This document shows positions 47,899 through 63,402 of a stretch of DNA of 64,000 bases, piece by piece. The stretch comes from Plantactinospora sp. BC1 (GTDB lineage: Bacteria; Actinomycetota; Actinomycetes; Mycobacteriales; Micromonosporaceae): positions 2,914,001-2,978,000 of the forward strand of contig NZ_CP028158.1 of NCBI RefSeq assembly GCF_003030345.1, in the 5' to 3' direction. Numbering within the stretch: position 1 is the first letter of the stretch; every line of letters begins with the position of its first letter. Position numbers and translations under genes: made by a program. A model generated the notes under the pieces. That model did not search any database and was not told where the DNA came from. It saw only the letters and a list, made by a program, of their open reading frames with translations.

Positions 47899-47911
47899 TT
47901 ACGCTTCTGGT

Positions 47912-48676
47912 GTGTCAGCTACCCGAATGATGATTCTCGGCCTGGTCCGGTGGATGCAACCGGTGCACGGCTATGACGTACGTCGCGAACTGCTGCGGTG
48001 GAGTGCGGACAAGTGGGCGAACGTCCAGCCCGGCTCGATCTACCACGCGCTGCGCAAGCTGACCGAGGAGGGACTGTTACGGGAGGTGGCCACCGAGCAG
48101 GTCGGCGCCCGTCCGGCCCGGGTCACCTACGGCATCACGCCGAAGGGCGAGGACGAGTTCCAGGGCCTGCTCAGGGGCAACTGGTGGAACCTCGGCGAGG
48201 TCGTCGACCCGTTCTTCGCGGCCTTCTCCTTCCTGCCCGCGCTGCCCCGGGAAGAGGCGTCCGCGGCGCTGCGTAACCGCGCCCGGCTGCTGCGCGCGGT
48301 CAACGACAGCCTGCGCGCGGCGATGGAGTCCGGCTGGATGAAGGAGGACAAGCCGGTCCACGTCGCCTGGATGTGGCAGTTGTCCATCGCCCGTGCGGAG
48401 GGGGAGATCAGTTGGTGTGAGCGGATCGCCGACCTGATCGACGCCGGGGTGCCGTACCTGCCGGAGGACTACGCGGAGAACATCGACTGGGCGCAGTACG
48501 CCCCGATGGCCAGCGAGGCGTCCTGGACCGGCGAGCGTAGGCCGTCGTCGGAGCCCCCATCGGAGCCGTTGTCGGAGGCATCGTCCGAGCCACCGTCCGG
48601 GCCGTCGTCGGCGGGGTCGTCGGCCGCGCCGGTCCGGCCGTCCGGGGACGGCGAGGGCCGGACCTCTGACACGTAA
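47912..48676 (+). CDS. PadR family transcriptional regulator of the DrrAB-type pump
   Basis: Product of 254 residues. The PadR winged helix (ILGLVRWMQPVHGYDVRREL, QPGSIYHALRKLTEEGLLRE, ARVTYGITPKGEDEFQGLL) is followed by a helical C-terminal dimerisation domain and a low-complexity Ser/Glu/Pro tail with SEPPSEP-type repeats. The GTG at 47912 has no Shine-Dalgarno and sits about 10 bp from the -10 box, so the mRNA is probably leaderless. It is followed by the ABC pump genes, whose promoter carries the same palindrome as its own, indicating a local repressor of drug efflux. Confidence 0.92.
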   Translation: MSATRMMILGLVRWMQPVHGYDVRRELLRWSADKWANVQPGSIYHALRKLTEEGLLREVATEQVGARPARVTYGITPKGEDEFQGLLRGNWWNLGEVVDPFFAAFSFLPALPREEASAALRNRARLLRAVNDSLRAAMESGWMKEDKPVHVAWMWQLSIARAEGEISWCERIADLIDAGVPYLPEDYAENIDWAQYAPMASEASWTGERRPSSEPPSEPLSEASSEPPSGPSSAGSSAAPVRPSGDGEGRTSDT

Positions 48677-48692
48677 TAATCAACGTTGACTA
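48677..48692. promoter_or_regulatory. PadR operator at the drrAB promoter
   Basis: TAATCAA-cg-TTGACTA, a 16-bp palindrome matching the site before padR. Its right half contains the -35 TTGACT (48686-48691), followed at 18 bp by TAGCCT (48710-48715) as -10, so bound PadR would block RNA polymerase. Confidence 0.85.
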
Positions 48693-48801
48693 GATGCGCT
48701 ATATCGCGTTAGCCTCCCGGAAGCGTTGCGGTGGGCGCCTTCTGGCGTGCCCCGGGGGATGGGGCCGGTGGGGATGCCGGTCCGGCTGACCAGGAGCAGG
48801 C

Positions 48802-49758
48802 ATGATCGAGACGAAGGGGTTGCGGAAGTCGTTCCGCTCCCGACAGGGCAGAGAGAAGAAGTCGGTCGACGCGGTCCGCGGTGTCGACCTCGTGGTGGCC
48901 GAGGGGGAGATCTTCGGCTTTCTCGGCCCGAACGGCGCGGGCAAGACCACCACGCTGCGAATGCTCGCCACGCTGATCGAGCCGGACGGTGGTGAGGCCA
49001 ACATCGCCGGTGTCGACCTGCGGACCAACCCCGGTGAGGTGCGGCGACGGATCGGCTACGTGGCCCAGGGCGGCAGCACCTGGGACGAGTCGACCGCCCG
49101 CGAGGAGCTGGTACTGCACGCCCGGATGTACGGGCTGAGCAAGGCCGAGGCGCAGCGACGCGCGGTACGCGCCCTGGAGGCGTTCCAGCTCACCGAGTAC
49201 GCCGACCGCAAGTGCAAGACGTACTCCGGAGGCCAGCGTCGCCGGGTCGACATCGCGCTCGGCATCATCCACGAGCCGAAGATCGTCTTCCTGGACGAGC
49301 CGACGACCGGCCTCGATCCGCAGAGCCGGGCCCACATGTGGGACGAGATCCGTCGGCTGCGCGCCGAGGGCATGACCGTCTTCATCACCACGCACTACCT
49401 GGACGAGGCGGACGCGCTCTGCGACCGGATCGCCATCATGGATCATGGCGAGGTGGTCGCCGAGGGGACACCGGCGGAGCTGAAGCGGGAGATCTCCGGC
49501 GACGTGGTGCTGGTCGCCATCGAAGGCTCGGCCCAGGACGCCGGCAAGGTGCTGGAGACCGAGTCGTACGTCACCAGCCTGGAGACCTCCGACGACGGCA
49601 CGCTCCGGCTCTACGTCAACGACGGGGCCCGGGACATGCCCCAGATCCTCCGCACGCTCGACGCCGCCGGGATCGCGCTCAGCTCGATCGAGCTGCACCG
49701 GCCCAGCCTCGACGACGTGTTCCTCACCAAGACCGGCCGCTCGCTGCGCGAGTCCTGA
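48802..49758 (+). CDS. drrA: daunorubicin-resistance-type ABC transporter ATP-binding protein
   Basis: Product of 318 residues of the DrrA group. Walker A is GPNGAGKTTTLRMLATL, signature YSGGQRRRVDIALGII, Walker B IVFLDEPTTGLDPQSRAHMW, and the H-loop lies in FITTHYLDEADALCDRI. The C-terminal extension carries the LDDVFLTKTGRSLRES motif typical of DrrA. The transported drug is not identifiable. It forms a two-gene operon with the permease under PadR control. Confidence 0.93.
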   Translation: MIETKGLRKSFRSRQGREKKSVDAVRGVDLVVAEGEIFGFLGPNGAGKTTTLRMLATLIEPDGGEANIAGVDLRTNPGEVRRRIGYVAQGGSTWDESTAREELVLHARMYGLSKAEAQRRAVRALEAFQLTEYADRKCKTYSGGQRRRVDIALGIIHEPKIVFLDEPTTGLDPQSRAHMWDEIRRLRAEGMTVFITTHYLDEADALCDRIAIMDHGEVVAEGTPAELKREISGDVVLVAIEGSAQDAGKVLETESYVTSLETSDDGTLRLYVNDGARDMPQILRTLDAAGIALSSIELHRPSLDDVFLTKTGRSLRES

Positions 49759-49814
49759 CCGCTCGCCGCGCGAGTCCCGCGCCTACGCCGCGCACCGCCG
49801 AACAGGAGACATTG

Positions 49815-50570
49815 ATGAAATTCGCCCGCGACACGTGGTTGATCTTCCAGCGGCAGTTCCTGCTGCTGGTCCGCCAGCCCGTCTGGCTCTTCGTCGGCAT
49901 CTTCCAGCCGGTGATGTACCTGCTGCTCTTCGCCCCGTTACTCAAGCCCGCGTTGCAGGCGTCGAGCAACGCGGAGGCGTACCGGATCTTCGTGCCCGGC
50001 CTGCTGGTGCTGCTCGCCATCTTCGGCGGGCTGTTCCAGGGCTTCGGTCTGATCGCCGAACTTCGGGCCGGGGTGATCGAACGGTCCCGGGTCACCCCGG
50101 TCAGCCGGCTCGCCCTGCTGCTCGGCCGGTCACTGCGGGACGTGGTGTCGCTGATCGCCCAGGCGATCATCATCACCCTGCTGGCGCTGGCGTTCGGACT
50201 CTCGGTCTTCATCGGGGACCTGCTGCTCGCGTACCTGCTGCTGGCCCTGATCGCGCTGATGACGTCGGCGCTGTCGTACGGGATCGCGCTGGTGGTGAAG
50301 AGCGAGGACGCGTTGGCGCCGCTGATGAACACGATTGCCCAGCCGGTCCTGCTGCTCTCCGGGATCCTGCTGCCGTTGACCTTCGCGCCCGGCTGGTTGC
50401 AGGGGATCGCCGACTGGAACCCGTTCTCCTGGGCGGTCGACGGCGCCCGGGCGCTCTTCGCCGGTGATCTCGGCAACGACGCCGTCTGGCAGGGACTGTC
50501 GGTGATGGCGGTGATCACGACGCTCGCCGTGGTCTGGGCCGCCCGCGAGTTCGCCCGCAGCGTCCGCTAG
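49815..50570 (+). CDS. drrB: daunorubicin-resistance-type ABC transporter permease
   Basis: Product of 251 residues with six membrane helices (QPVWLFVGIFQPVMYLLLFA, LLVLLAIFGGLFQGFGLIAE, the RVTPVSRLALLLGRSLRD loop, ILLPLTFAPGWLQGIADWNP). ATG at 49815 follows aggagac. It is 56 bp behind drrA. Its stop codon overlaps the end of an IS481 transposase remnant on the other strand, so an insertion occurred at its very 3' end; the coding sequence appears complete. Confidence 0.92.
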   Translation: MKFARDTWLIFQRQFLLLVRQPVWLFVGIFQPVMYLLLFAPLLKPALQASSNAEAYRIFVPGLLVLLAIFGGLFQGFGLIAELRAGVIERSRVTPVSRLALLLGRSLRDVVSLIAQAIIITLLALAFGLSVFIGDLLLAYLLLALIALMTSALSYGIALVVKSEDALAPLMNTIAQPVLLLSGILLPLTFAPGWLQGIADWNPFSWAVDGARALFAGDLGNDAVWQGLSVMAVITTLAVVWAAREFARSVR

Positions 50571-50800
50571 GTGTAGGGACCAGCAGCGTTGTTGACGCGG
50601 CTGATGGGTGGTTGGCCTCCGAGTGCGGTGTGTCCGCGATGGTGGTTGTAGGTGTGGATCCAGGTGGGTAGGGCGTCTGCGCGGTGTTGGTTGCTGGTGT
50701 AGGGCTGTTGGTAGGCCCATTCGTCGAGGAGGGTGCGGTTGAAGCGTTCGGCTTTGCCGTTGGTTTGTGGTCGGTAGCGGCGGGTGAAGCGGGGTTGTGC
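50567..50800 (-). pseudogene. IS481 family transposase, C-terminal fragment
   Basis: Reading the minus strand gives about 78 residues ending in a stop at 50567-50569, beginning with RFTRRYRPQTNGKAERFNRT and including LLDEWAYQQPYTSNQHRADA and TYNHHRGHTALGGQPPISRV. This is the conserved C-terminal end of IS481-type DDE integrases, including the ERFNRT helix after the third acidic residue. The rest of the transposase (HTH and first two catalytic residues) and the upstream end of the IS are missing. Homology stops abruptly near 50800, where another gene's tail begins. There is no start codon, so it is non-functional. Confidence 0.88.
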
Positions 50801-50908
50801 GCCGACCGGCTGATGGCCGCCCGCCTCGCTGGCGAGGACATCGAGCCGCAGGGCCCGATCGAGACCGAAGCGGCTCGACGCCTCGACAACGAACTCAACC
50901 AGAAGTAG
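50801..50908 (+). pseudogene. truncated 3' end of an unknown gene at the IS junction
   Basis: About 35 codons in one frame (ADRLMAARLAGEDIEPQGPI, then ETEAARRLDNELNQK and stop). They have good actinobacterial codon use, in contrast to the low-quality frame continuing into the IS remnant. It looks like the tail of a gene whose 5' part was lost when the insertion sequence arrived or was deleted. Parent family not recognised. Confidence 0.5.
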
Positions 50909-51011
50909 TCATCCAGTTACCCAACACTCTCTGAGACGTCGGCGCAACCGACGCCGAGCTGGCGGCGGGCGTCGTCGTCGAGCTTGCGGTGGTCGTCTCG
51001 TGTGTCGCGGC

Positions 51012-51920: not shown

Positions 51921-52150
51921 CTCGCTCAGGTCCTTGACAGTCGGACCACGCCGTCGACGCTATCGGTACAAGTTCCACTGTAGAGGGCAAGGCCAAGGAT
52001 CTCTGGCACACCGCCGCAGTCGACCACGAGCTCCTGGAACTGCGAGCTCCTGGAACACTGCGCGCACCTTGACGCCTGACGGCGTTGGTCACCACAACCC
52101 TCAGGTGAACTCAGGCAGAGGCCAGGTCGCCTTCGATGGCTAGCGCCCCG

Positions 52151-52178
52151 TTGATTTAGATGTGAAACTATCTATGTA
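52151..52178 (+). promoter_or_regulatory. candidate promoter of the gene at 52210
   Basis: TTGATT (52151-52156), a 16-bp spacer and TATGTA (52173-52178) in an A/T-rich patch, with purine-rich gaggag and aggaag tracts between it and the ATG at 52210. Confidence 0.5.
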
Positions 52179-52209
52179 ACGAGGAGTGCACAGGAAGCCA
52201 CATTGAGCG

Positions 52210-53100
52210 ATGTTGGTGGTTCTGTTGGGACAACTTCCGTTGTGGGGACCCGGCGCGGACGAGGATCCGCCGTCGAAACCAGTGCTGACCCGCCCAGTGA
52301 CACTCCGCCTCCTGATCACCGTGAAGGCGGCTCCCAATCCGTCCGCCCGCTACGGGGAGACAGTCTGCGTCGGCGCGCTCGGCCTGGAAACGCCCTGGAC
52401 AGGCTGGATTCGGCTCTACCCGATCCACTTCCGCGATCTGGCCGACGACAGCAGATTCCGTAAGTACGACATCGTCCGCCTCGACGCGCTGCCGGCCAGG
52501 CAGGACCAGCGCCGCGAGAGCTGGAAGCCGATCGTGGACACCATCACCACCGAGCAGCACCTGACCAACCAGCAGTCACGTCGAAATCTCCTCGATCCAC
52601 TCGTCGAAGACTCCATGTGCCGGCTCAACGAGCAGGCCCGCGACGACCCGAGCGCACGATCGATCGCATTGATTCGCGCCGCCGACATCTCGGCCCTACA
52701 GGTCAAGCGCCATCCTGGCTGGTCGGTGGAGGACCGCAAGAAGATCGCTCGCTACCTCAACCAGCTCGACCTACTGGAGCCATCCAAGCCCAGCCCGCTT
52801 CAGGCACCACGATTCACCGGTGCCTACCGCTACCGATGTGCGGACCGCCGTTGCCGTGGTCATCAGCAGACCCTCTGGGACTGGGAATTCGTCGCCCTCC
52901 AACGTCGTCTGACCCAGCTCACCGACGCGGAGGCTGCGGATCAACTCAGACACAAGTTCCTCGACCAACTCTGCGCCGCCGACCGCGACGTCGCCTTCTA
53001 CGTGGGCAACCAAGCGGCAAGACCGCAGTCCTTCAGCATCGGCGGCGTCTACGCACCCAGACGACCCACCGCTCGATATCGACTACGCGTCAACCGATGA
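52210..53100 (+). CDS. unknown protein adjacent to DUF4326 gene
   Basis: Product of 296 residues. The conserved part begins near residue 30 (VTLRLLITVKAAPNPSARYG), followed by VCVGALGLETPWTGWIRLYP and a cysteine/histidine cluster (CADRRCRGH) that may bind metal. The end is a basic RRPTARYRLRV. I recall similar unnamed proteins near DUF488-type genes, but cannot assign a function. GTG codons at 52282 and 52297 are alternative starts nearer the conserved region. The 3' end overlaps the convergent DUF4326 gene by 11 bp; small, nucleotide-binding-like neighbours of this kind are frequent in mobile islands. Confidence 0.65.
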   Translation: MLVVLLGQLPLWGPGADEDPPSKPVLTRPVTLRLLITVKAAPNPSARYGETVCVGALGLETPWTGWIRLYPIHFRDLADDSRFRKYDIVRLDALPARQDQRRESWKPIVDTITTEQHLTNQQSRRNLLDPLVEDSMCRLNEQARDDPSARSIALIRAADISALQVKRHPGWSVEDRKKIARYLNQLDLLEPSKPSPLQAPRFTGAYRYRCADRRCRGHQQTLWDWEFVALQRRLTQLTDAEAADQLRHKFLDQLCAADRDVAFYVGNQAARPQSFSIGGVYAPRRPTARYRLRVNR

Positions 53101-53386
53101 TCTCGGCCAGCACATCAGCGTGGCAGGCATCCTCGACGTGACACCAACACGCCAACTGCTTTCCCGCGAGTTCCTGCCTCGCCCGCTCGACAAGCGCCGG
53201 CTGTCCCACAAGCCACTGCCGATACAGGCGCAACGCCTCAGCCCGATCATGGCTGCGGAGGCTGAACGGATTGGCCCAGGGAGAACGCCGCAACCCGAAC
53301 CCCTGCCGCCCGACATAGACGGCACCGGACGGTACGACCGGGTGGTAGAGGTCCCCCTGAACTCGAACCCGTGACTGCGCCCCCAC
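53090..53386 (-). CDS. DUF4326 domain-containing protein
   Basis: Product of 98 residues matching the DUF4326 pattern: GAVYVGRQGFGLRRSPWANP, FSLRSHDRAEALRLYRQWL, and the C-terminal LACWCHVEDACHADVLAEII with its conserved CWC and CHAD residues. The family has no settled function; it is common in phages and genomic islands, and the Cys/His set suggests a catalytic or metal-binding role. GTG 53386 is the likely start. The open frame continues upstream through the tRNA fragment but that part is not coding. It converges with, and overlaps, the unknown gene ending at 53100. Confidence 0.85.
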   Translation of the reverse strand: MGAQSRVRVQGDLYHPVVPSGAVYVGRQGFGLRRSPWANPFSLRSHDRAEALRLYRQWLVGQPALVERARQELAGKQLACWCHVEDACHADVLAEIIG

Positions 53387-53515
53387 GCGGCCAGGGTAAC
53401 TGTCCACCACGGGCTCGGCGGGGTGCTCGCGAGTGCATGGTGTGTCCCGACCATACCGCCCGGTCCAACGGCTCCCGAGCACTTGTCGAGCACCCCGGAC
53501 ACCCCGGCAGCAATG

Positions 53516-53556
53516 AAAAAGGCCCGGATCCAGGTGGGAACCCAGATCAAGGCCTT
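53516..53556 (-). terminator. intrinsic terminator of the tRNA-Lys locus
   Basis: Inverted repeat AAGGCC...GGCCTT with inner GATC/GATC and TGGGAACCCA pairings. On the minus strand the 3' arm is followed by TTTTT. It lies 7 bp beyond the 3' end of the tRNA-Lys fragment, where the native tRNA terminator would be. Confidence 0.8.
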
Positions 53557-53562
53557 GATCGT

Positions 53563-53607
53563 TGGTGCGCCGCCAGGGACTCGAACCCCGAACCCGCGGA
53601 TTAAGAG
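53563..53607 (-). tRNA. tRNA-Lys(CTT) 3' half (partial; attachment-site remnant)
   Basis: On the minus strand the sequence runs from the anticodon loop (CTCTTAATC) through the GCGGGTTCGG variable region, the T-arm GGGGTTCGAGTCCCTGGC and the acceptor end GGCGCACCA. It has the CCA end but no D-arm or 5' acceptor strand. It corresponds to the 3' 45 nt of actinobacterial tRNA-Lys(CTT). Integrative elements commonly use the 3' end of tRNAs as attB, so this is read as an attachment-site copy. The intact 5' half is probably at the other end of the island, outside the window. Confidence 0.85.
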
Positions 53608-53750
53608 GTTGGTCTTTATCGAGTCGTTGCGTCCCACCGACGCCCTGAGAGTCCATTTATTCGCGACTATTGCCTGATTTCGTCGAAACGCCGTCCCGCT
53701 GGGTCCAGCCAACCTCGTGCCCGTCCAAGGCGGTCGAGCACCCGGCGAGC
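53595..53750. repeat. attachment-site-like direct repeat, left copy
   Basis: About 156 bp starting inside the tRNA-Lys anticodon region and extending into the island. It is similar along its length, roughly three quarters identical by eye, to 61806-61960. Shared landmarks are gattaagagg at the start, ttcgcga.tattgcc, atttcgtcg and cgagcaccc near the end. Confidence 0.8.
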
Positions 53751-54116
53751 ACCTGGTGCTACGCCATCTACACCGGCGAGGGAATCACGTCGCAGGGCGG
53801 ACCTACTCGAAGACTCATCGCCCTCGCCCTTGTGGCCACCACCGGATAGCCTCGCCCACGTAAGTAGCCCACCGGCTCTAGATGCATCTAGGGGCACGAG
53901 AACAGAACCTTCCCACCGAGCCTGCATGCCGGAACCGAGTTCGACGTGGGACCGCACCGCCCCGTCCTGTGTTGACGACGCTTGGAGCGGCGGGCAACAT
54001 CGTCCCTCAGCCAAGCAGGTTCCTGAAGTGCCGCTGTCGGGATGGCAGGCGCACGCAGCGTGCCGAGCGCTGCTGCTACCCATCACGATCGACGCCCGAA
54101 TCTAATCGAGCAGCGG

Positions 54117-56615
54117 TCAGCACTTACCGAACTTGGTCCAGGCTTCCATAGGGTTGGTGACGAGCGCGGTTTCGGTGGGGGTAGGCAGAGGGCGGCTGCC
54201 CGCATAGCCGGCGATGCCGGTCAGGAGGTTGCGCCATAGCGCGGCTTGCCATCCGGCACGAGTTGGCGAGGCCAACACCAGCCGCCGGCGGCCGTCCCAC
54301 CAGCCGTGCACATCGATGGCAGCACGCGCGACGATGTGGGTGTCTGGGAAGTCACACAGCCGGTCGAGCACGTTGATCACTGTGCGCCGCGGATCCTTCT
54401 GCGTCCGGACGATGACGGTGCCGTCGGCGATTCGTTCCACCGCGTCGACCACGTCGTCCAACCTGTCGAGCGCGTCATCGATCTCGTTGCGCTGAAGGAT
54501 CCATACCAGGTCGGCGCGGATGTGCGGCGTGATGAACCGCGGTCCGAGCGTGTAGCCGGTCATCCCCTCGGCGTACTTCTCGATCGCCTCGTGGGTGGCA
54601 TCCAGGACCCAGTCCTTGTGCTTACGCAGGTCGGCGAGGAGCAAGTCGATGCTGTTGGCACGATCGGGATCCGGTTTATGGGAGAGCGTCCCGTGGCGAA
54701 GTGCGATCAGTCCGACCGCGGTCAAGGCGGCATGTTCCGCGGCCAGCGTTTGCTCCTCCTCGGCGCACCAGAGGTTCACGAGGCCGTCTTGAACTATCCA
54801 CGTCCAATCTTGTGGGTGCGGCCAAAGGCCACCGCCGACAGCGATCAGCACAATGCGGTACGCGGCCAGCTGCGCGGCCAGGGGCCACTGCGCTGACTGT
54901 TCGACGAGCCTCTGAAACTGCTCGCGGGCGTGCCGGCGCCGCCGCTCGTCAAGGGCCTGAATCGCCGCCGCCGTGCTGAGCGGGGGACCCTTCCGTTCGG
55001 CGGCGAGCTGTTCGCTGTCGCTGGACTCGGGAGCGTCGTCCCCTTTGAGTTCACCACCGCCGTTGCCTGGTGGCGTAGGCTTGCGGTCGCGGCCCAGTGC
55101 CAGATCCAGCAGTGCGGATCCGACGGCCCGGCGGATGTCCTCCTCCATTCGCGCGCGGCGGCGCCTCTTCGCGGTCGCCGAATCGTCCTCGTCCGGGCGC
55201 GGCGGCCGGACCTCTGCGAGCTTCCTCAGAGCGTCGAGCAGCGCCTGCATTTGCCTTTCGTCACCCAACAGGTCGGGCAGTGACCTGTCCTCGAGCGGGG
55301 ACGGGTGCCTGGTTCGGGACAGGGCGCTGCGTACGTCGATGACCAGGCCGACTCCGATCGGACTGCCGTCGGCGCCGCGCACGGTGATGGTGCGTGCCGG
55401 ATCGCCTGGGTCACCCTCGATTCGGTAAGTGTGGATCTGCTCATGCGTCTCGACGTGCGCGGCCGTGCGTGACTGGCCGGCGAGGTCGATTACTAGGTGG
55501 TCGGGCACCGGACCGGCGGTCACCAGGATCGTCACCTCGACCCGTTCGGGGTCGGTGAGGGCATGGACCGCCAATACGCGTCGACCAGGCACTGGCGGTT
55601 CCGAGCCAGCCTCCGGGGTACGCAACGGCAGTTCGTCGAGATCCGCGTCTTCCGCGTCGACGGCGTCGAGCATCGATTCGGTGATGTGCTGGAGGAGGGC
55701 GAGTTCGCAGTTACCTTTCTCGTCGGCCATCGACCGCAGCAGCGCGGCTCGGGTGCAGTTGGCGCTGCCGGTGACCAGGGTGCCGGTCAGACCGGACCAC
55801 CATTCGAGGACCTTGCCGTGGTGGTAGCGGGAGGTGGTTGGCTTGGTGATGCGGACGGTACCGACCCGGTCCAGCACCCGCCGCAGTTGACCTGGGTCGA
55901 GCTGGGCGTCGCGGGTGAGCAGCACGTCGAGCTGCTCGGGTCGGAGCTTGTGGAGCAGCCGGGATAAGGCGTCGGCGGGTGGGTCAAAGAAGGGCGAAGC
56001 GACTCGCAGCCGATCTACAGGGTTCATCGGCAGCGGCAGCTGGTCCGCGAGCGGCTGCCGATCGTTGGTGAGCAGCAGAGGCTCGTCCGGTTCGGGCTGT
56101 GTCGGTCGCGTGGTGAGCAGGTCGGCGACACAGTGCAGCCGTTCCCGGCCAAGGGTGGTGATCCAGAGCTGGTCGGGCAGCCGGCGCAGCCAGGCGGCCA
56201 GGTCGTCGACGAGGGTGGGCACGGTGGGACCGTCGATGCGCAGGTGGGTCCACACCTCGGCGCTGTGATGCCAGCCCTGCGAGGTGGCGTTTCCCGAGCC
56301 GATCGAGATCAGTGCGTCGGTGGCCGATGCGATCACCACCAGTTTGGGATGGAACGCGCCGCCGGAGCGACACACCACCGGTACCGGTACGTAGTCCGCG
56401 AGCGGCCCGCGGCCGGAGGCGAAGCCGGGCTCGACGTGATCGGCGTCGTACACAATCGTCACCCGCGCGCCGCGGGCGCGCGCCCGCTCGACGCACACGT
56501 CCTCGATGAACGGCAGATCGCTGGTGTACGTCAGGACCAGGATCTCCTGCGGTTCCGCGATCGGCAGCTTGTGGAGGACGCGCGGTGGAGGCGCCCCGAC
56601 CAGGTCATCACTCAT
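54117..56615 (-). CDS. phospholipase D-like (double HxK) protein, candidate defense nuclease
   Basis: Product of 832 residues with two PLD-type motifs in the first 300: His89-x-Lys91 (GAFHPKLVVI) followed by GSGNATSQGW, and His266-x-Lys268 (YHHGKVLEWW) followed by GSANCTRAAL. Both HxK-N-[GS] elements are present, so one pseudo-dimeric PLD active site is likely, as in PLD-family nucleases. Residues 450-560 are charged and possibly coiled. The C-terminal 270 residues are helical and unrecognised. The ATG overlaps the upstream gene's stop by 4 nt (ATGA), so the two are translationally coupled. No helicase motif is seen. A nuclease acting on DNA is inferred, not proven. Confidence 0.75.
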   Translation of the reverse strand: MSDDLVGAPPPRVLHKLPIAEPQEILVLTYTSDLPFIEDVCVERARARGARVTIVYDADHVEPGFASGRGPLADYVPVPVVCRSGGAFHPKLVVIASATDALISIGSGNATSQGWHHSAEVWTHLRIDGPTVPTLVDDLAAWLRRLPDQLWITTLGRERLHCVADLLTTRPTQPEPDEPLLLTNDRQPLADQLPLPMNPVDRLRVASPFFDPPADALSRLLHKLRPEQLDVLLTRDAQLDPGQLRRVLDRVGTVRITKPTTSRYHHGKVLEWWSGLTGTLVTGSANCTRAALLRSMADEKGNCELALLQHITESMLDAVDAEDADLDELPLRTPEAGSEPPVPGRRVLAVHALTDPERVEVTILVTAGPVPDHLVIDLAGQSRTAAHVETHEQIHTYRIEGDPGDPARTITVRGADGSPIGVGLVIDVRSALSRTRHPSPLEDRSLPDLLGDERQMQALLDALRKLAEVRPPRPDEDDSATAKRRRRARMEEDIRRAVGSALLDLALGRDRKPTPPGNGGGELKGDDAPESSDSEQLAAERKGPPLSTAAAIQALDERRRRHAREQFQRLVEQSAQWPLAAQLAAYRIVLIAVGGGLWPHPQDWTWIVQDGLVNLWCAEEEQTLAAEHAALTAVGLIALRHGTLSHKPDPDRANSIDLLLADLRKHKDWVLDATHEAIEKYAEGMTGYTLGPRFITPHIRADLVWILQRNEIDDALDRLDDVVDAVERIADGTVIVRTQKDPRRTVINVLDRLCDFPDTHIVARAAIDVHGWWDGRRRLVLASPTRAGWQAALWRNLLTGIAGYAGSRPLPTPTETALVTNPMEAWTKFGKC

Positions 56616-58138
56616 GCGCCCACCTCGGCGCTGTAGGGACCTGGCCCCCAGAGGCTGCCGTCCCCGGAGCGCTCTAGAACACCCAACTGGTGCAGAACGC
56701 TGGCGAAGGTTTCCAGCCGTAATGAGGCGGCTGCGTCGCCTTCCCGTCCTTCCAGCCGCAGTCGGTCACCGACCACCCGCAGGCGAGTCGGCATCCGCAG
56801 CCCGGTGCGGGTCCACTGCATCTTGTCCCGGCTCACCTTTTCCGCCCGATTGAACAGGCCGAGGGTGAGTGATCGTGCCGCGTCCGGCAACGGCTGGTCG
56901 GTGTGTTCGTCAATCCAGCCACGGACCCAACCCGGTCCCATGCTCGACTCGTCGTAGCGGAGGAACGCATTCCGGCTCAGTCCGTCGAGCTCACCGGCTC
57001 GCCGCGCCCCGACGGCGAGCAGCTGCAGTAGTTGCAGCGCGGACCACTCGCCGCCATTCCGCCCGACCTGGTCGTTGAGAATGTGCTCGGCTGGCTTCAG
57101 CACGCCGCCGGCGTCCATTGTCGGAGGCAACTCGTCGCGCAGCGCCTGCCGCACCGCGATGTTGGGCAGGCCGGCGACGAACATGTCGGCCGCATCCTTG
57201 CGGGTGCCCGGCTTCTTCAGCGGCGCGACCAGCTTCGCCCAGATCATCCGCCATGCCCACACCGACCAGTTGCGCAGTAGCGCCCCGCGCCAGCGCAGCG
57301 CGTGCGCTTCATGGTCAGTGCTGGCGAGTACCCCGGCCAGGTCAGCGGTGTAGCAGCACAATCGGTCCATCAGCAGGTCGACGTTGTCGTCAACCTGCTG
57401 CCCCGCGAGGGCTGCGACCAGGACGGCGGCGCTGGCCCGGTGCACGGCGGCCAGTTCCGGATCTGGTCCGCGGGGATCGAAGTACGCGCGCCGCAGAGCG
57501 GTGCCGTCGGCCGCCCCGCTCACCGCGCACAGACAAAGGTCGGCGGTCCCGGCCAGGTCAGCCTCGGCCAGGGCGGCGGGTCCGTCCGCGAGGTCAACGA
57601 TCCGGTCAAGGGCGCTTAGCGCCTCGGCGTCGGCGGCCTGCCCGGGCTCGGGGATCGTTCCTGGGTTGATCAGGCTCAGCGTGGCCTCGATGCCGCCGTA
57701 GGTGCCGTAGAAGCCTTCCGCAACGGTGCTGTAGTCCTGCGCCAACTGGTCGAGGTGTACGCCGCCGTGCTTGTCCAGCGCCTTGGCGATCGTGTTCACA
57801 CCATGTGGGTTGCGCCAGCCCGCCCGGCGTTGATGCTGCTCCTGGTCCCTGTTCAAGTGGTGGAGGGAGGCGGCCGCCAACACGACCTCGCAGCGGCGCA
57901 GCAGCCGCCGAAAGTCCGGCCGATGGCTGCTGGACCATCCCCGTCGCTCCGCCTCGATGGCGACCCGCGCGTGCAGGGAGAGATACCGGGCGTGAGGCGT
58001 CGTGGTGATGACACCGGGTACGAGTTCGGACGCGTGGGCGGCGGTTACCGCTTCCACCGCGAGCGGCTGCCGTCCCGTGTCCTCTGGACTGTCGGCCTTG
58101 GCGGACCATGCCGCACCAGCCACCAACATGCCGGCCAT
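56612..58138 (-). CDS. unknown protein coupled to the PLD-like gene
   Basis: Product of 508 residues; no family recognised with confidence. The N-terminal ELVPGVITTTPHARYLSLHA, with an Arg-Tyr after a Thr run, recalls unnamed proteins such as DUF6361 that often accompany nuclease genes. The middle is helical (LLRNWSVWAWRMIWAKLVAP) and the C-terminal RLRVVGDRLRLEGREGDAAA may form a winged-helix end. ATG 58138 is preferred because GAGAGG lies 6 nt upstream; a TTG at 58165 is also in frame. The stop overlaps the PLD-like gene start, so the pair forms an operon and may act as a complex. Confidence 0.7.
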   Translation of the reverse strand: MAGMLVAGAAWSAKADSPEDTGRQPLAVEAVTAAHASELVPGVITTTPHARYLSLHARVAIEAERRGWSSSHRPDFRRLLRRCEVVLAAASLHHLNRDQEQHQRRAGWRNPHGVNTIAKALDKHGGVHLDQLAQDYSTVAEGFYGTYGGIEATLSLINPGTIPEPGQAADAEALSALDRIVDLADGPAALAEADLAGTADLCLCAVSGAADGTALRRAYFDPRGPDPELAAVHRASAAVLVAALAGQQVDDNVDLLMDRLCCYTADLAGVLASTDHEAHALRWRGALLRNWSVWAWRMIWAKLVAPLKKPGTRKDAADMFVAGLPNIAVRQALRDELPPTMDAGGVLKPAEHILNDQVGRNGGEWSALQLLQLLAVGARRAGELDGLSRNAFLRYDESSMGPGWVRGWIDEHTDQPLPDAARSLTLGLFNRAEKVSRDKMQWTRTGLRMPTRLRVVGDRLRLEGREGDAAASLRLETFASVLHQLGVLERSGDGSLWGPGPYSAEVGA

Positions 58139-58517
58139 TATTGACCTCTCACCGTTCACCTCCAATGACCACTCCGGCAGGCCTCCTTCCGCTCAGGCAA
58201 GCCGAGGTTCGGAGATCGAGTGGCGGAGCAGGTCCGAATGACCCACTCAGTCCGACGGCACCGTCACACGATGATGCCGGGTCGGCAGGGCAGCACGTGG
58301 CACTCATATCGCCCTGGCCGCTGGCCAAACAGGCACTTCCCACCGCAGCGGGTCGGCATCTGGTCGCGATGGCGGCAACGGCCCGAATCATCACCTGGTG
58401 TCGTGGTGTGTCGGCGGAGTAGACCGGGCACAGTTGCGCGACGGTTGGTGGTTGTGGACCCGGTGCCGACCGCACCATGGCCGCTTGGTCGTCGGCTGTA
58501 ATGCCAGGATCGGTCCC
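58139..58517. other. 379-bp intergenic region
   Basis: Between the end of the exonuclease gene and the start of the two-gene PLD operon, all on the minus strand. It presumably carries the operon promoter. No gene or repeat could be recognised. Confidence 0.5.
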
Positions 58518-59750
58518 TCACCGCGCCGGGGCAGGCGTGTTGAGGCCGGCGAGCATGTCTCGATAGGCTGCCGGGTGGACAATGGGGATGCCATACTGTC
58601 GGGCCTTCTTCGCTTTTCCTGACGCTGAGTCCGGGTCCGCCGCAACGAGCAGCCGGGTCTGCTTCGTGACGTTGTCTCCGACTCGCAGACCAGCGGCGAC
58701 GGCCTCGGCCTGCCAGTGCTCTCTGGGTGGATGCATCAAGCCGGTGAAGACTAGGAGATCGCCGGGCTGCAGCCGCCATTCAGTCCGTCGCCGGGGCGCG
58801 TCCTGGTTCCCGCTCTCAGCTGCGGCCAGTGCTCTATCGACGTCGTTGTTCTGCAGACCGAGCAGCGACGCGACCTGATCGAGGTCGTCTCGTTCCGCGG
58901 CGGTTAGGACGCCGTCTTCGATTGCGGCGGTCGCCAACGCAAGGAGATACTCGTGGTGCAGGTGATCAACGTCGACGCGGGCAAGTCCGAAGGAGTCGGC
59001 CGTGGCCACGAGCGCGTCGGCCTCGCTGGCGGATATGTGGCGGTCGAGGAGAGCCTTGTCGAGCACGTCGAGGTATTCGTCGCCCTGCGGCTGATGGAGT
59101 CGTGGCAGCCGGTCGACAAGCCGAGTCAGGAAGTGCTCCTCACCGACCTTTGGCGATCGGCGCTGAACTGGCACGACCGGCTCGGCCGCCACAACGGGCC
59201 ACTCCAGGGCGGCGGCCGCCGTGGCCATGGCCGTCCAAGGCGGAGGATGCCCGGTCGCCACCAGATAACGCCCAAGTAGCCGCGCCGCGGCGCGCGCGTC
59301 TTCCAAGGCCGAGTGCGGGCGATGCTTGGGCAGACCAGCGGCTCTGCAGCAGTCGCTCAGGCTACGACCAGCAGCGGGCAAAAGATGCGATGCCAGACGC
59401 ATGGTGCAGAGCCCGGCGTCGGCGTCGATCGGCACATGAATGCCCATGCGACGGTACTCGGCGAGTAGGAACATGGCCTCGAAGCGGAGGTTGTGCGCAA
59501 CCAGCACCCGCTTGCGCAGCAACCCGGCCAGATGGCCTGCGAGCTTGTCGAACTTGGGAGCCCGGCGAGCCTCCGCGGCGGAGATGCCGTGAATGAGCTG
59601 CGGACCCATGTCTCGATCGGGATTGACCAAGCTGCACCACTCGCTCGTGATCTGCCCCCACTCGTCGAGCTGGATGACAGCCGCCTCGACTACCCGGTCG
59701 TGCCAGCTCGTACGCAGACCCGTTGTCTCAAGGTCGATCACCGCGTACAC
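58518..59750 (-). CDS. DnaQ-like exonuclease with TerB-like middle and BRCT C-terminus
   Basis: Product of 410 residues. Residues 1-165 form a DEDDh exonuclease domain: Asp6 and Glu8 in VIDLETTGL, and His146/Asp151 in HSALEDARAAARLLG. The second catalytic Asp of the HNxxFD motif is replaced by Glu91 (HNLRFEAMFL). Residues about 220-310 are acidic and helical, resembling TerB/tellurite-resistance domains (IEDGVLTAAERDDLDQVASL). Residues 325-400 form a BRCT-like domain (GDLLVFTGLMHPPREHWQAE, TRLLVAADPDSASGKAKKAR). GTG 59750 follows GGAGGT. It probably trims or proofreads DNA 3' ends; the BRCT part suggests recruitment to nicks or replication structures. Confidence 0.85.
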   Translation of the reverse strand: MYAVIDLETTGLRTSWHDRVVEAAVIQLDEWGQITSEWCSLVNPDRDMGPQLIHGISAAEARRAPKFDKLAGHLAGLLRKRVLVAHNLRFEAMFLLAEYRRMGIHVPIDADAGLCTMRLASHLLPAAGRSLSDCCRAAGLPKHRPHSALEDARAAARLLGRYLVATGHPPPWTAMATAAAALEWPVVAAEPVVPVQRRSPKVGEEHFLTRLVDRLPRLHQPQGDEYLDVLDKALLDRHISASEADALVATADSFGLARVDVDHLHHEYLLALATAAIEDGVLTAAERDDLDQVASLLGLQNNDVDRALAAAESGNQDAPRRRTEWRLQPGDLLVFTGLMHPPREHWQAEAVAAGLRVGDNVTKQTRLLVAADPDSASGKAKKARQYGIPIVHPAAYRDMLAGLNTPAPAR

Positions 59751-60167
59751 ATCAACCTCCGTTGCCTCGTGACAAGCTCAACACTGCTCGGTACACAAAG
59801 GCGGGGTCCTATCGTGACAGCGGATAACGATAGCTACGGATGACCGCTGCCGCGCCCGCCCGGTGCGTCTGATCGTGCACGCCGAGAGCCCTATCCACCC
59901 TGTGCGATATCGGCTTGGTCATCCTCAGTGACGCCGATGGGATCGCCTAATGGTTGTCGGCCAGGCGACATCAGTCGTGGCTTTTCAGTCAGGATTTGCT
60001 GGGCGGATCACGGTGGGAATACACCTTCGGTGTTCGGAACTGTCCATCATGGCCCTGTGCTGCGCCACAAGGTCGACTGAAGACTCGACCTCTCGGTCTG
60101 AACACTTTCGGACTGCGGTTCGAGACGCTATCCCAAGCCCCGGGCAGCGCGGGCCCTGAGCTACCGC
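59751..60167. other. 417-bp intergenic region
   Basis: It holds the promoter of the exonuclease gene. An inverted repeat CTATCG-N13-CGATAG (59809-59833) lies about 60 bp upstream of that start and could be an operator. The rest is A/T-richer than the backbone and shows no gene. Confidence 0.45.
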
Positions 60168-61337
60168 TCAGCGCACGAGCGCCCGGATCGTCTCACCGTC
60201 GAGCAAAGGCTTTCCGTCCGGCCCCTTGATGTAGGGACCACGGTAGATAACCTTGTGCCGTTGTTCGCTGGGGTACCACTGGCGGACCTTGTGCATCTTG
60301 ACGATCCATCGGTGCTGCCAGTTCCTACCCTTGGCTCCGCCGTGTGGCTGCTCGGCGCGTTGGCGCAGCCGGATCACCCGGACCTCAGGCGACATGCCTG
60401 TGCGCTCGGCGATCACCCGGGCGGCGTGGTTGGTCTCGATGTGCTGGACCTCGGCGATCCGCTGTTCGCACAGTCGCCAGAAGGCGTACAGGAAACGCAG
60501 TGTGAAGGTGTCGTCCGCGTCCTCGATTTGGCTGCCGGAGGCGTACTCGCCGATCACGCGGCTCTCATCCTGGCCCATGGCTTCGGCTGCGTCACGAACG
60601 GCGCCGTCGACAGCCTGGGCTGCACGCGCGAGCCGGGCCGGAGCCTGCGGGTCGGCCTCTGCGGCACGAAACGGCAGGCATCGGACTGCGTCAAGAATCA
60701 GCGGCGGCAGCGGCGTACCCGCCTGGCGGGCTTCGGCGGCGAGGTCCAGGAACGAGTCGGGACGTACCGGTCCGTGCGTATCGTGGTAGACCGACACCCG
60801 CACGGAGGGCTTCATCAGCATGGCGTCCCGGTTCGTAGGATCCGGGAGAGTGAAGTTGGCCGGAGTGTGCCAGCTGAATGCCCGATCGTCGCCGAGGTTG
60901 CCGCCGACGGTTCTGACCAGCACCGGGTACGGCAGCACCAAGAGGCCGGTCGGGCTGGGTAGGTCCTCCTCGTCGATCAGTTGCAGGTCCTCGACCCCGA
61001 GGCTTTGCGCTGCGGCAATGACTATGTCACACATTTGCGGCGTCACGACGTACAGTTCCGCCTCGGTGAGGTGGCGCGCCTCGTCACCAATCACCAGGTC
61101 TGCGGCCTCGTCCCAACCGGCCGGATACGGCGGCTGGTAGCCCAAACCGCCGAAAAGCATCAGCGTGGCTGCGTCACGGCTGCCAAAGTTGGCCCGGTGG
61201 ATCTCGTACGCCCGCATCATCTTGACCTTGTGCCACCGGCGGGCGATCTCCGCAGTCCGCATGTGCGTGGCGGTACCTGTCCGCGCCTCCCGGGCGAACC
61301 GGGCGGCGCCGGCGAGTGACCACGTCTTGACTGTCAC
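60168..61337 (-). CDS. unknown protein of a family common in actinobacterial islands
   Basis: Product of 389 residues. The N-terminal VTVKTWSLAGAARFAREART is followed by MRTAEIARRWHKVKMMRAYE. A central region, LIDEEDLPSPTGLLVLPYPV, and a strongly conserved C-terminal end follow: GRNWQHRWIVKMHKVRQWYP, then GPYIKGPDGKPLLDGETI. I recognise this aromatic/basic ending from unnamed proteins of actinobacterial mobile DNA but know no function. GTG 61337 follows GGAGGT with 4-nt spacing; the upstream open frame is poor. No membrane segment or signal peptide. Position inside the repeat-bounded island suggests cargo or replication-associated function. Confidence 0.7.
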   Translation of the reverse strand: MTVKTWSLAGAARFAREARTGTATHMRTAEIARRWHKVKMMRAYEIHRANFGSRDAATLMLFGGLGYQPPYPAGWDEAADLVIGDEARHLTEAELYVVTPQMCDIVIAAAQSLGVEDLQLIDEEDLPSPTGLLVLPYPVLVRTVGGNLGDDRAFSWHTPANFTLPDPTNRDAMLMKPSVRVSVYHDTHGPVRPDSFLDLAAEARQAGTPLPPLILDAVRCLPFRAAEADPQAPARLARAAQAVDGAVRDAAEAMGQDESRVIGEYASGSQIEDADDTFTLRFLYAFWRLCEQRIAEVQHIETNHAARVIAERTGMSPEVRVIRLRQRAEQPHGGAKGRNWQHRWIVKMHKVRQWYPSEQRHKVIYRGPYIKGPDGKPLLDGETIRALVR

Positions 61338-62058
61338 GGCTACCTCCCCAGGCCACCTACCACGGTGACGCTGGCAGCACGCTGCGTCAAGTCTGGAAGC
61401 GGGCAGCGGCCATGACCAGCGAGTCTGAGGCGACCGAGCGATGTCCACTCCGGGTGAACCTTGCGCCGCCCTGACGCCGCGAAGATCCTCGGCGAGACGA
61501 ACGTCAGGAGGCAGCCTGCCCGAGAAGTGCCCGGAATCGACGGATAACACGACCACCTTCCCAAAAAAGGCAGTCGCGGTCGCTACCGTAGCCCCCAGCA
61601 GGGTGGAATCGACGTTACCCTCGGCTGGCAGTCGAGGTTACGCCCAGCGATCCCGCCATGCACCCCTCCATAGCCAGAGCCAGCGGATTTCACGCCTACA
61701 ACCCCGCGAAGCCCATCCCCTCGCCAACAGCTCGACGCACACGATCCGCAGAGGGTGCCCAGGTCAGCCCCACTCCCAACACGTCCCGCTCAGTCCAGAC
61801 AGTCCCGCAGATTAAGAGGCTGATCTTGATTGAGTCATTCAGGCCCAGCGGCACCCCTGAAGTCCACCTGTTCGCGATTATTGCCCTATTTCGTCGCGAC
61901 AGCGTCCCCATGAGTCTAGCCAATCTCGGCCCGTCCACGGCAACCGAGCACCCGATGAGCGCCCATGCCCCTGGTTGCGCCGACGGGATGGCAATGAGGT
62001 TGCGAGTCACCCGTGCGGCTGCCGATGATTCGGCTTCGACCTCCGACGTGGGAGCAAA
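61338..62058. other. 721-bp region containing the right boundary repeat
   Basis: It contains the right copy of the attachment-site-like repeat (61806-61960). The left part (61338-61805) shows no gene; a poly-A tract (61562-61567) and irregular sequence suggest remnant DNA. The right end is the leader of the nuclease-like gene at 62059. Confidence 0.55.
61806..61960. repeat. attachment-site-like direct repeat, right copy
   Basis: Diverged copy of 53595-53750 in the same orientation. It preserves part of the tRNA-Lys anticodon arm (gattaagagg preceded by cccgc), but the T-arm and acceptor are lost to its left. Divergence indicates an old insertion or a related but distinct element, not a recent duplication. 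Confidence 0.8.
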
Positions 62059-63402
62059 ATGCGTAACTCGTTGATGGACCGTGCATCGGGCAATCAGATC
62101 GACGTAATCCTTACCCATCCGCGTCATCAGCAGGGCCTGCGGACCATGATCGAATTGATTGCTGACCTGCGTCGTTGTCGATTGGCTGCCGACCTGTACG
62201 AGTTCCAGGAGCGACTGTTCGGGTTAGTGCTGGAGATCGAGCAGCGCCGCAGCGAGATCAGCCGCGTCATGAAACGACTCAGGAAGCCAGGCGGCACCCT
62301 CCCTAGAGGCGCGCCCGACCTCGGCACCGACTTGGACCCGTCGGGCCTCGACTCGTGGATGCTGGAGGACGAGGTCTACGAACGGATCTGGCGGCAGCTG
62401 AAGTCGATCGGCGATGCCCTCGCGTGGCGATCGTTCGGGTACGACCGGCAGGTCATCATGGCCCTGTCCCGCAACGCCTCTCCAGGGATCATGCACGGCA
62501 AGGACGGTCTGACCAAAGAACGTGAGGTCATCGCGTCGGCCTGGCGCGACAACGGCGAGTTCGTGCTACACCACGACCTCACCGCCGCATTGCGGGTAGG
62601 CGACCTCAGCGTGTTCCGCGCCGACGGCAGCGTCCTACTGCACGAGGTCAAGATCAACAGCAAGCGCCGAATTAGGAAACAGGATCAGCTTCTGATCGAC
62701 ACCTCGACGGTTCTGGCCGATGAGGGGACACTGCCCAGCGGCATCACCCCCGTCCGCACCGAGATCCCACTTCTCACCAACCTGCGCGGGCTACGCGAGG
62801 TGCTTGGGCTGGCACACGAACGCAGCGGCATCCAGGCGGGTGTCGTGTCCCCCGGCCGGGCCGTCGTCGCCGCGAGCCAGTACACCGCCGCCCAGCACTA
62901 CCGCGAGGACACCTTCGGTGCCCGTTTCTCAATCGACCTTGCTCGCTACCAACGCAGAATCGGCATACGGTCACCCGAACACACCCTCAAGATAACCAGT
63001 CTCGATTCGGCTGCGCGCTGGCCCGCTCGACCCCCGTGGGCGATCTACCCGCTTGCGCCAGACGTCGCCGCCAGCCTCATCGCCGACGCAATGTTCTTCT
63101 TCGTCTGCATGTCCCCAGACGCGATCATCCGTCAGCTCGCCGACGTCGGCGTACTCGCGGAGTGGATGCAGCCGCTCAACGGCACTGAGGATTGGACCAA
63201 GCCGCTGCTACGCGTCGCGGCCACCGCCAGGAACCGCCTGTGGTTCACATCGTTGAACCCAGAGGCCATCGCAAGCCTGATGCTGGAGTTCATCGACCTG
63301 CGCAGCTGGTCCCGCCAAGTAGCCCTGATGCTCAGCGGCGACGTACCGGCCGGTACCCGACCGTGGCCCTGCTTCTCCGACGAGTACAAGACATGGGTAT
63401 GA
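62059..63402 (+). CDS. PD-(D/E)XK nuclease-like protein
   Basis: Product of 447 residues. A restriction-type catalytic core is suggested by Asp182 (AALRVGDLSVF) followed by Glu196-x-Lys198 (LLHEVKINSKRR), preceded by helix GKDGLTKEREVIASAWRDNG. The flanking N-terminal 120 residues are helical (LYEFQERLFGLVLEIEQRRS) and the C-terminal 200 residues are mixed and unrecognised. ATG 62059 has GGAG 4 nt upstream. It lies just outside the right repeat copy, so it belongs to the next island segment. A DNA nuclease is inferred from the D-x13-ExK pattern only; other functions of this fold remain possible. Confidence 0.65.
   Translation: MRNSLMDRASGNQIDVILTHPRHQQGLRTMIELIADLRRCRLAADLYEFQERLFGLVLEIEQRRSEISRVMKRLRKPGGTLPRGAPDLGTDLDPSGLDSWMLEDEVYERIWRQLKSIGDALAWRSFGYDRQVIMALSRNASPGIMHGKDGLTKEREVIASAWRDNGEFVLHHDLTAALRVGDLSVFRADGSVLLHEVKINSKRRIRKQDQLLIDTSTVLADEGTLPSGITPVRTEIPLLTNLRGLREVLGLAHERSGIQAGVVSPGRAVVAASQYTAAQHYREDTFGARFSIDLARYQRRIGIRSPEHTLKITSLDSAARWPARPPWAIYPLAPDVAASLIADAMFFFVCMSPDAIIRQLADVGVLAEWMQPLNGTEDWTKPLLRVAATARNRLWFTSLNPEAIASLMLEFIDLRSWSRQVALMLSGDVPAGTRPWPCFSDEYKTWV

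Follow-up and report, generated by a model that had tools for sequence, protein, structure and literature searches.

A possible integrase-less cassette with defence-type genes at a tRNA-Lys attachment site in Plantactinospora sp. BC1

How do defence genes come to be stacked beside a tRNA gene when no integrase is found in the block that carries them? To our knowledge, such stacking in islands has mostly been described by location and seldom by mechanism. We addressed the question in Plantactinospora sp. BC1 (G000, a single contig of 8.33 Mb; other G-numbers denote the family genomes compared), in a window of 64,000 nucleotides (genome positions 2914001-2978000) in which an 8.2-kb module lies between two diverged direct repeats, with the 3' half of a tRNA-Lys(CTT) at its outer end and an integrase-bearing resident element at the other (Table 1). 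The joints are readable here: a conserved left arm, a 15-bp core, a recurring right arm, differing cargo and no integrase found. We see about an even chance that the module is a non-autonomous integrative cassette with defence-type genes, resembling a cis-mobilizable element (CIME) and docked at the resident's end by the resident's integrase. Similar blocks in related bacteria hint at a way in which anti-phage gene islands may arise.

The repeats (window positions 53593-53753 and 61804-61963) have the same orientation and align at 77% identity over 162 bp with gaps (E = 5e-28). Their ungapped pieces, 53593-53717 versus 61804-61928 and 53719-53753 versus 61929-61963, are 75% and 80% identical, and the spacing is 8210-8211 bp. 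The original prediction, made from the letters alone, had placed this pair correctly within a few bases. It had also taken the tRNA half as the mark of an attachment site and asked for an intact tRNA-Lys(CTT), or its 5' half, right of the window; we found the intact gene 38 kb to the right of the half (genome 3005460-3005535), and the half is identical to it. ARAGORN reported no whole tRNA in the window, as expected, since the window holds a half only. The inner repeat copy retains 15 bp of the tRNA (CTCTTAATCTGCGGG, 14 of 15 matching); the 7-bp anticodon loop is identical between inner and outer cores, and one base differs further on. Parts of the site are called P, P' and core after the convention for phage lambda; motifs similar to the P' arm follow the intact tRNA-Lys in G000-G004 and G006, not in G005. 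We considered and rejected a protein-coding remnant: ORF-like (open reading frame) stretches common to both copies can be seen by eye, yet the differences are spread evenly over three phases (15/19/16), a non-coding look that does not fit part of a conserved gene, and in other genomes the P arms have split into a number of subtypes.

Within this bacterial family, a family of tyrosine-integrase elements uses an attachment site at tRNA-Lys, and the repeats are copies of that site's left (P) arm, about 142 bp long. A plain nucleotide genome search missed the 77% copy in G000 itself, and sequence models were used instead. From 26 half sites fetched for comparison we left out the four in which the P arm is missing (G194a, G194c, G220a and G248d) and a duplicate (G264, like G276a) and added the outer site of G004, giving model R1 of 22 sites, all from other genomes and none from G000. 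Built in this way, R1 recovered both G000 copies, which bears out their reading as attachment-site arms, and found no further P arm in that chromosome at E ≤ 1e-3; its genome searches covered 40 genomes under strict filters. P-arm matches at E ≤ 1e-4 occurred in 16 of 150 family genomes, 26 in all. Sixteen stand directly before a tRNA-Lys-type 3' half (13 near-identical to the G000 half, three variant, in G026 and G121), four before a short core, and six before neither (two partial matches, three that lack a core and one P' arm). The half sites fetched from the integrase-bearing genomes share a plan: a P arm that starts near GGTGCTC-N4-GGGTGCTCG, is rich in TGGACT/GGGAC and leads into the core; past the tRNA half stands a terminator, in many cases with a P' arm of the type GTGCTCG-N4-GTGCTCGGGAGCC.

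Matches to the resident's integrase at E ≤ 1e-60 were present in 121 of 300 family genomes, and 21 genomes including G000, among the matches listed, hold it at 85% identity or more. In 18 of the 19 other holders at this identity (G000 and G004 aside) the gene lies at most 36 kb from tRNA-Lys or its 3' half, and in the remaining one it stands on a contig of 5.5 kb. We also looked for a P arm directly behind the integrase gene, and this was not the arrangement in 22 loci (one ended by the contig end). The sequence there is variable, with resemblance between L058 and L065 and between L056 and L066, and a terminator/P' side stands close behind the gene only in G194 (L053).

Relatives that lack the island while still showing both repeats would point away from integration. 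In the same-genus genomes G001, G002, G003, G005 and G006, none of which has the integrase at 85% identity or more, the genome searches found no P-arm match at tRNA-Lys. G006 has one weak match away from tRNA-Lys, and weak partial matches to the P' side adjoin tRNA-Lys in G003 and G006. In G005, tRNA-Lys is intact and without a P-arm match; by eye, the sequence 3' of it is like the outer flank at G030, where the site is occupied, and this is what an empty site should show. Other genomes too have several half sites arrayed at tRNA-Lys, in keeping with the original prediction. In G248, three further full half sites (L135-L137) stand behind the intact gene; no PF00589 match lies in the 18.5-kb segment between two of these, and its right-hand flank is of another kind. 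At G041:C1:408750-408871, far from tRNA-Lys, and in L148 (G137), strong P-arm matches stand with no tRNA core beside them, as solitary arms or relics.

The inner site differs from the outer one on its right side. Its order is P arm, 15-bp core and then a distinct right arm, which we call Q. The original prediction was correct that part of the anticodon arm is kept there; the copy is not merely a worn tRNA half, since a recurring arm of its own follows the core. We had first assumed a simple decayed tRNA half, revised this once the right side proved recurrent, and kept it as a rival. A model of core and Q arm, R2, was made from five sites (G000, G212, G007, G121 and G092) and searched over 354 family genomes with strict filters. 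Q was found at E < 1e-14 in six, five of them the model sources and the sixth, G334, independent (4.5e-15); G304 has a partial match (2e-5), and matches of about 5e-4 in G019 and G131 look like chance. Within the sources, Q is less closely shared with G121 and G092. Judged by sequence, the inner copy is one member of a recurring site class, P-core-Q, because Q is found again, also in the independent G334. No RNA structure was detected in the Q arm (fold z 1.4 and -0.1).

Between the two sites lie four long co-oriented ORFs. As predicted, these cargo genes have no integrase, excisionase or relaxase match in Pfam or NCBIfam, relaxases having been looked for only through these scans of the four ORFs. 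Between 53608 and 61803 there is no match to PF00589 at E ≤ 1e-6 or PF01580 at E ≤ 1e-3, the thresholds by which integrases and transfer ATPases were looked for; the sole PF00589 match of the island at its threshold is at genome 2986992-2987543, outside the 8.2 kb. Defence systems are named as in PADLOC, and several are candidates only. The ORF nearest the inner site probably starts later than called, near 61340, which is a guess.

Both ends of the Q-to-P module can be seen in five genomes: G000 (8.2 kb), G212 (12.9 kb), G121 (4.5 kb), G334 (3.1 kb) and G304 (about 7 kb, Q partial). None of the five has a PF00589 match at 1e-6. Three carry PADLOC-matched defence-type genes or homologues, one a weak match and one none, the cargo scans having covered part of the ORFs in the modules outside G000. 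The G212 module contains ZacA, ZacB and ZacC with DUF429 and DUF6884 ORFs, and its ZacABC-DUF429 block is shared with G304 at 82.7% over 6.8 kb (a DNA match, by which the G304 genes were assigned). In G334, taken as Micromonospora sp. ATCC 39149, the layout is Q, one called UvrD-like ORF, P and tRNA half, and over 2680 bp the UvrD-like region matches the ORF behind Q in G007 at 94.9% identity; a JetA-type (Wadjet) gene follows Q in G092. Recurrence in other genomes is shown for the cargo of some cassettes and not for the G000 cassette. Relatives of the G000 PLD-domain protein occur in 18 other genomes of the 354. G000 and G212 have no module cargo in common by blastn, though they share the P-core-Q site.

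In the route that we favour, the cassette would be bounded by its own attachment-site halves, the Q arm (61803-61672) and P arm 2 (53750-53610), and the core of exchange would be the anticodon loop and 3' anticodon stem of tRNA-Lys(CTT). The resident's tyrosine integrase would join the cassette's attachment site (attP, P2-core-Q2) to the P1-core-tRNA half at the resident's end, yielding a P1-core-Q2 junction at 61804, the cassette, and P2-core-tRNA half as the newly formed outer end at 53563. This predicted order stands in G000, G212 and G121. The reverse reaction would free an 8.2-kb circle; were the outer end to recombine with the intact tRNA, resident and cassette would move as one. The right arm of the cassette does not restore the tRNA, and for that reason the cassette is expected behind a tRNA-restoring element and not alone. 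We infer that the resident's integrase is the agent, given that the P arms belong to its family, and that recombination takes place and still does so today. The paired P arms are 74% alike in G000, each about as close to the G041 arm (77% and 74%), 65% in G212 and 97% in G121, so that the modules differ in age or in source element. Should the resident's integrase move cassettes, defence islands at tRNA-Lys would grow by site-specific docking, and the joints would serve as a search tool for cargo of unassigned function, possibly defence. More speculatively, the modules may form a dedicated class of integrase-less cassettes, down to one gene (3.1 kb), which have their own P-core-Q site and borrow the resident's integrase; we regard this as possible and somewhat doubtful. 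Such cassettes would be the tRNA-site counterpart of integron cassettes, building defence islands stepwise, and cargo between integrase and P arm (type III restriction-modification-like in G000, a brxL gene before the P arm of the G212 resident) would represent earlier captures.

Several observations weigh against a cassette of this kind. Two of the four G000 module genes have no family match; the G334 gene matches GajB-type PADLOC models weakly, as judged through its G007 homologue; and the G121 module has a 602-aa ORF without a match among the ORFs scanned, plus smaller ORFs outside the scan. The full P1-core-Q2 junction occurs in G000, G212, G121, G007 and G092 only. No P arm was found before Q in G334 and G304 or at the far end in G007, and in G092 a contig of only 5.6 kb limits the view of the module end. 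In G334 and G121 a single base of the 7-bp loop is not the same in the inner core as in the outer one, and in G007 the inner core is one base short beside the loop. The sharing of motifs by Q and P is modest: against a null of shuffles with mismatch -2, the stricter scoring, z is 3.3 in G000, 4.2 in G121 and 0.7-1.4 in the other four (1.4-5.0 under a second scoring; -0.4 to 1.3 for the two following 143-bp stretches as controls). No excision product, circle or empty cassette site was seen in the sequence data, which could not show excision. Q is also weakly similar to the tRNA-half side (z 0.2-3.0 and -0.1-2.2) and could on that account be a worn relic of it.

A worn Q would suit a classical CIME, in which the module is the remnant of an integrase-bearing tRNA-Lys element after deletions, its tRNA end worn to 15 bp and a newer element in front. 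That route is a published one, and the composite CIME-ICE-target (ICE, integrative and conjugative element) is among the commoner ones in the tabulated parts of the two reports (PMC5704250, PMC7563491). Q and the tRNA-side terminator share CTGACCTGG at a similar offset, and for G212 and G334 Q scores slightly above shuffles against the tRNA side. Q can, however, be aligned among G000, G212, G007 and G334 despite the differing cargo of G000, G212 and G334, so that one old decayed lineage is needed rather than separate decays, and no integrase remnant was found at E 1e-6 in the five modules; we consider this origin rather unlikely. Improbable, in our view, is that Q is the right arm of another, unsampled integrase-bearing family, with the modules as its deletion derivatives, moved by that integrase. 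Right-hand sides at tRNA-Lys half sites are indeed of several types, and G334 has another tyrosine integrase beside tRNA-Lys (4605814-4606353), but no PF00589 match lies between Q and P arm wherever these can be bounded among the six strong Q sites in 354 genomes, and an exact-pattern scan of a wider contig collection returned only the G334 record. We give least credence to static scars, left by homologous recombination or duplication between neighbouring P arms and with no site-specific cassette movement: the P arms of G121 are as alike as duplication would leave them, whereas those of G000 and G212 have diverged, the G000 arms are about as close to that of G041 as to each other, and the sequence change falls at the core.

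Set beside known systems, the module works like a CIME and departs from one defining feature, the usual inner attachment site. Within the PF00589 and PF01580 searches it lacks integration and transfer genes, and it has attachment sites at both ends (P-core-tRNA half at 53563, P-core-Q at 61804); at the inner one, only 15 bp of tRNA precede the Q arm. As described in the cited portions of PMC7563491 and PMC5704250, CIMEs are decayed elements that keep their attachment sites and are moved by accretion-mobilization; Streptococcus sites include rpsI, fda and tRNA-Lys(CTT), the last common in S. agalactiae, and sizes in S. salivarius are 1.2-13 kb. The modules resemble these, so far as those portions describe them, in being bounded by attachment sites, carrying cargo over about 1-13 kb without integration or transfer genes, and standing in tandem behind an integrase-bearing element. 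They differ in the inner site, here 15 bp of target and a distinct recurrent right arm, in cargo that is partly defence-type with some of it recurring as units, and in the resident, in which no transfer ATPase was found. In Frankia sp. EAN1pec, by the account in the relevant part of PMC3218068, the tandem actinomycete integrative and conjugative elements (AICEs) Fean5518 and Fean5534 excise from tRNA-Lys singly and jointly; they are likewise tandem, site-specific and actinobacterial with related tyrosine integrases, but both are described there with int and tra, and neither is integrase-less. The toxicogenic region TR1 of Streptomyces scabiei, called a CIME of TR2 in the section concerned of PMC8369830, is also an actinobacterial cargo block parted from an integrative element by an inner attachment site; its target there is aviX1, with an 8-bp palindromic site and other cargo, and the comparison is one of layout. 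Searches of the open-access literature on such elements in Micromonospora, on integrase-less satellites and on defence islands turned up nothing of this layout among the results listed for those terms. The original proposal of a cis-mobilizable element left by tandem accretion is partly supported: it stands as to the attachment arms, the missing integrase, the occupied tRNA-Lys(CTT) and the half-site arrays, is unproven as to mobilization in cis by an ICE, and needs correcting at the inner end, where the tRNA remnant leads into the Q arm.

Table 1. Features of the tRNA-Lys locus (window coordinates).
Feature	Position	Strand	Evidence
Stretch belonging to another element, with PADLOC PDC-M19B ORF (52210-53100) and P' arm	52039..53562	.	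90% match to G004 island; PDC-M19B 2e-37
Right-hand (P') arm motif GTGCTCG-N4-GTGCTCG	53476..53493	-	Exact pattern match
Hairpin and T run after tRNA half, terminator-like	53500..53562	-	53500-53592 folds better than shuffles, z -3.4; T run in sequence
Outer attachment core: 3' half of tRNA-Lys(CTT) from anticodon loop to CCA	53563..53607	-	45/45 identical to intact tRNA-Lys
P arm 2, closing the 8.2-kb module on its outer side	53610..53750	-	R1, E 7e-22
832-aa PLD-domain protein, partly ZacB-like	54117..56615	-	PF13091 1.2e-6; PADLOC ZacB 1.2e-15
517-aa protein, no family match	56612..58165	-	Pfam, NCBIfam, PADLOC scans
DEDDh exonuclease and BRCT protein, PADLOC candidate PDC-S48	58518..59750	-	PF00929 2e-21; PF00533 3.5e-5; PDC-S48 1e-168
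ORF without family match	60168..61556	-	Pfam, NCBIfam, PADLOC scans
Q arm, right arm of inner attachment site	61672..61803	-	79%/142 bp to G212, 80%/92 bp to G007, core included; R2 match 61672-61818
15-bp core CTCTTAATCTGCGGG: loop and 3' stem of the anticodon arm, with one base changed	61804..61818	-	Sequence comparison
P arm 1, end of integrase-bearing resident	61820..61960	-	R1, E 2e-19
First cargo ORF of resident	62059..63402	+	Type III restriction-modification-like cluster follows beyond window

From the intact tRNA leftwards, the island consists of a DUF4238 ORF, sugar/carbamoyl-type cargo, a HAD ORF, Replic_Relax, a DUF2637 ORF, a helix-turn-helix ORF, the tyrosine integrase (genome 2986905-2988380; PF00589 5e-17), a helicase and MTase_III cluster, P arm 1, core, Q arm, the four cargo ORFs, P arm 2 and the tRNA half. 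By our own reading of its sequence, the helix-turn-helix ORF is a candidate excisionase, and the helicase and MTase_III cluster looks like type III restriction-modification. The resident shares with AICEs a tyrosine integrase with an attachment site at a tRNA 3' end; a Replic_Relax match (PF13814 6e-54) marks a candidate replication initiator. No FtsK/SpoIIIE-type Tra (PF01580) was found in the islands of G000, G004, G212, G276, G248, G041, G007 and G121 (contig C37), and with no such ATPase match inside the island coordinates of these eight genomes, the terms ICE and cis-mobilizable are unproven for the island as a whole.

The island does not end at 53563, where the original prediction had set its edge: it runs on, with 52039-53596 matching at 90% identity a stretch within the tRNA-Lys island that occupies the site in G004. 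A conserved host block ends at about 50568, and fragments resembling insertion sequences (ISs) follow. There seems to be a rearrangement breakpoint beside the island, because this host block is not near tRNA-Lys in G004 and G006. The block, a genus-conserved ABC-transporter region (47900-50568), is about 40 kb from tRNA-Lys here and far from it in those two genomes. At 50564-50939, where it ends, IS-like pieces of 243 bp and 133 bp are joined, each 98-100% identical to several places in the genome, and one of the copies lies at the contig's first bases. In G212, ARAGORN found three tRNA-Lys(CTT) genes at one island (L194:5323-5398, L194:7212-7287 and L200:2433-2508), which could make one of them dispensable. 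Near the intact tRNA of G000, the cargo from L005:17124 to L006:8326 comprises HAD, sugar epimerase, thymidylate-synthase-like, carbamoyltransferase, methyltransferase and APH-like ORFs, a block partly kept in G004 (DNA match) and G276 (ORFs, by eye).

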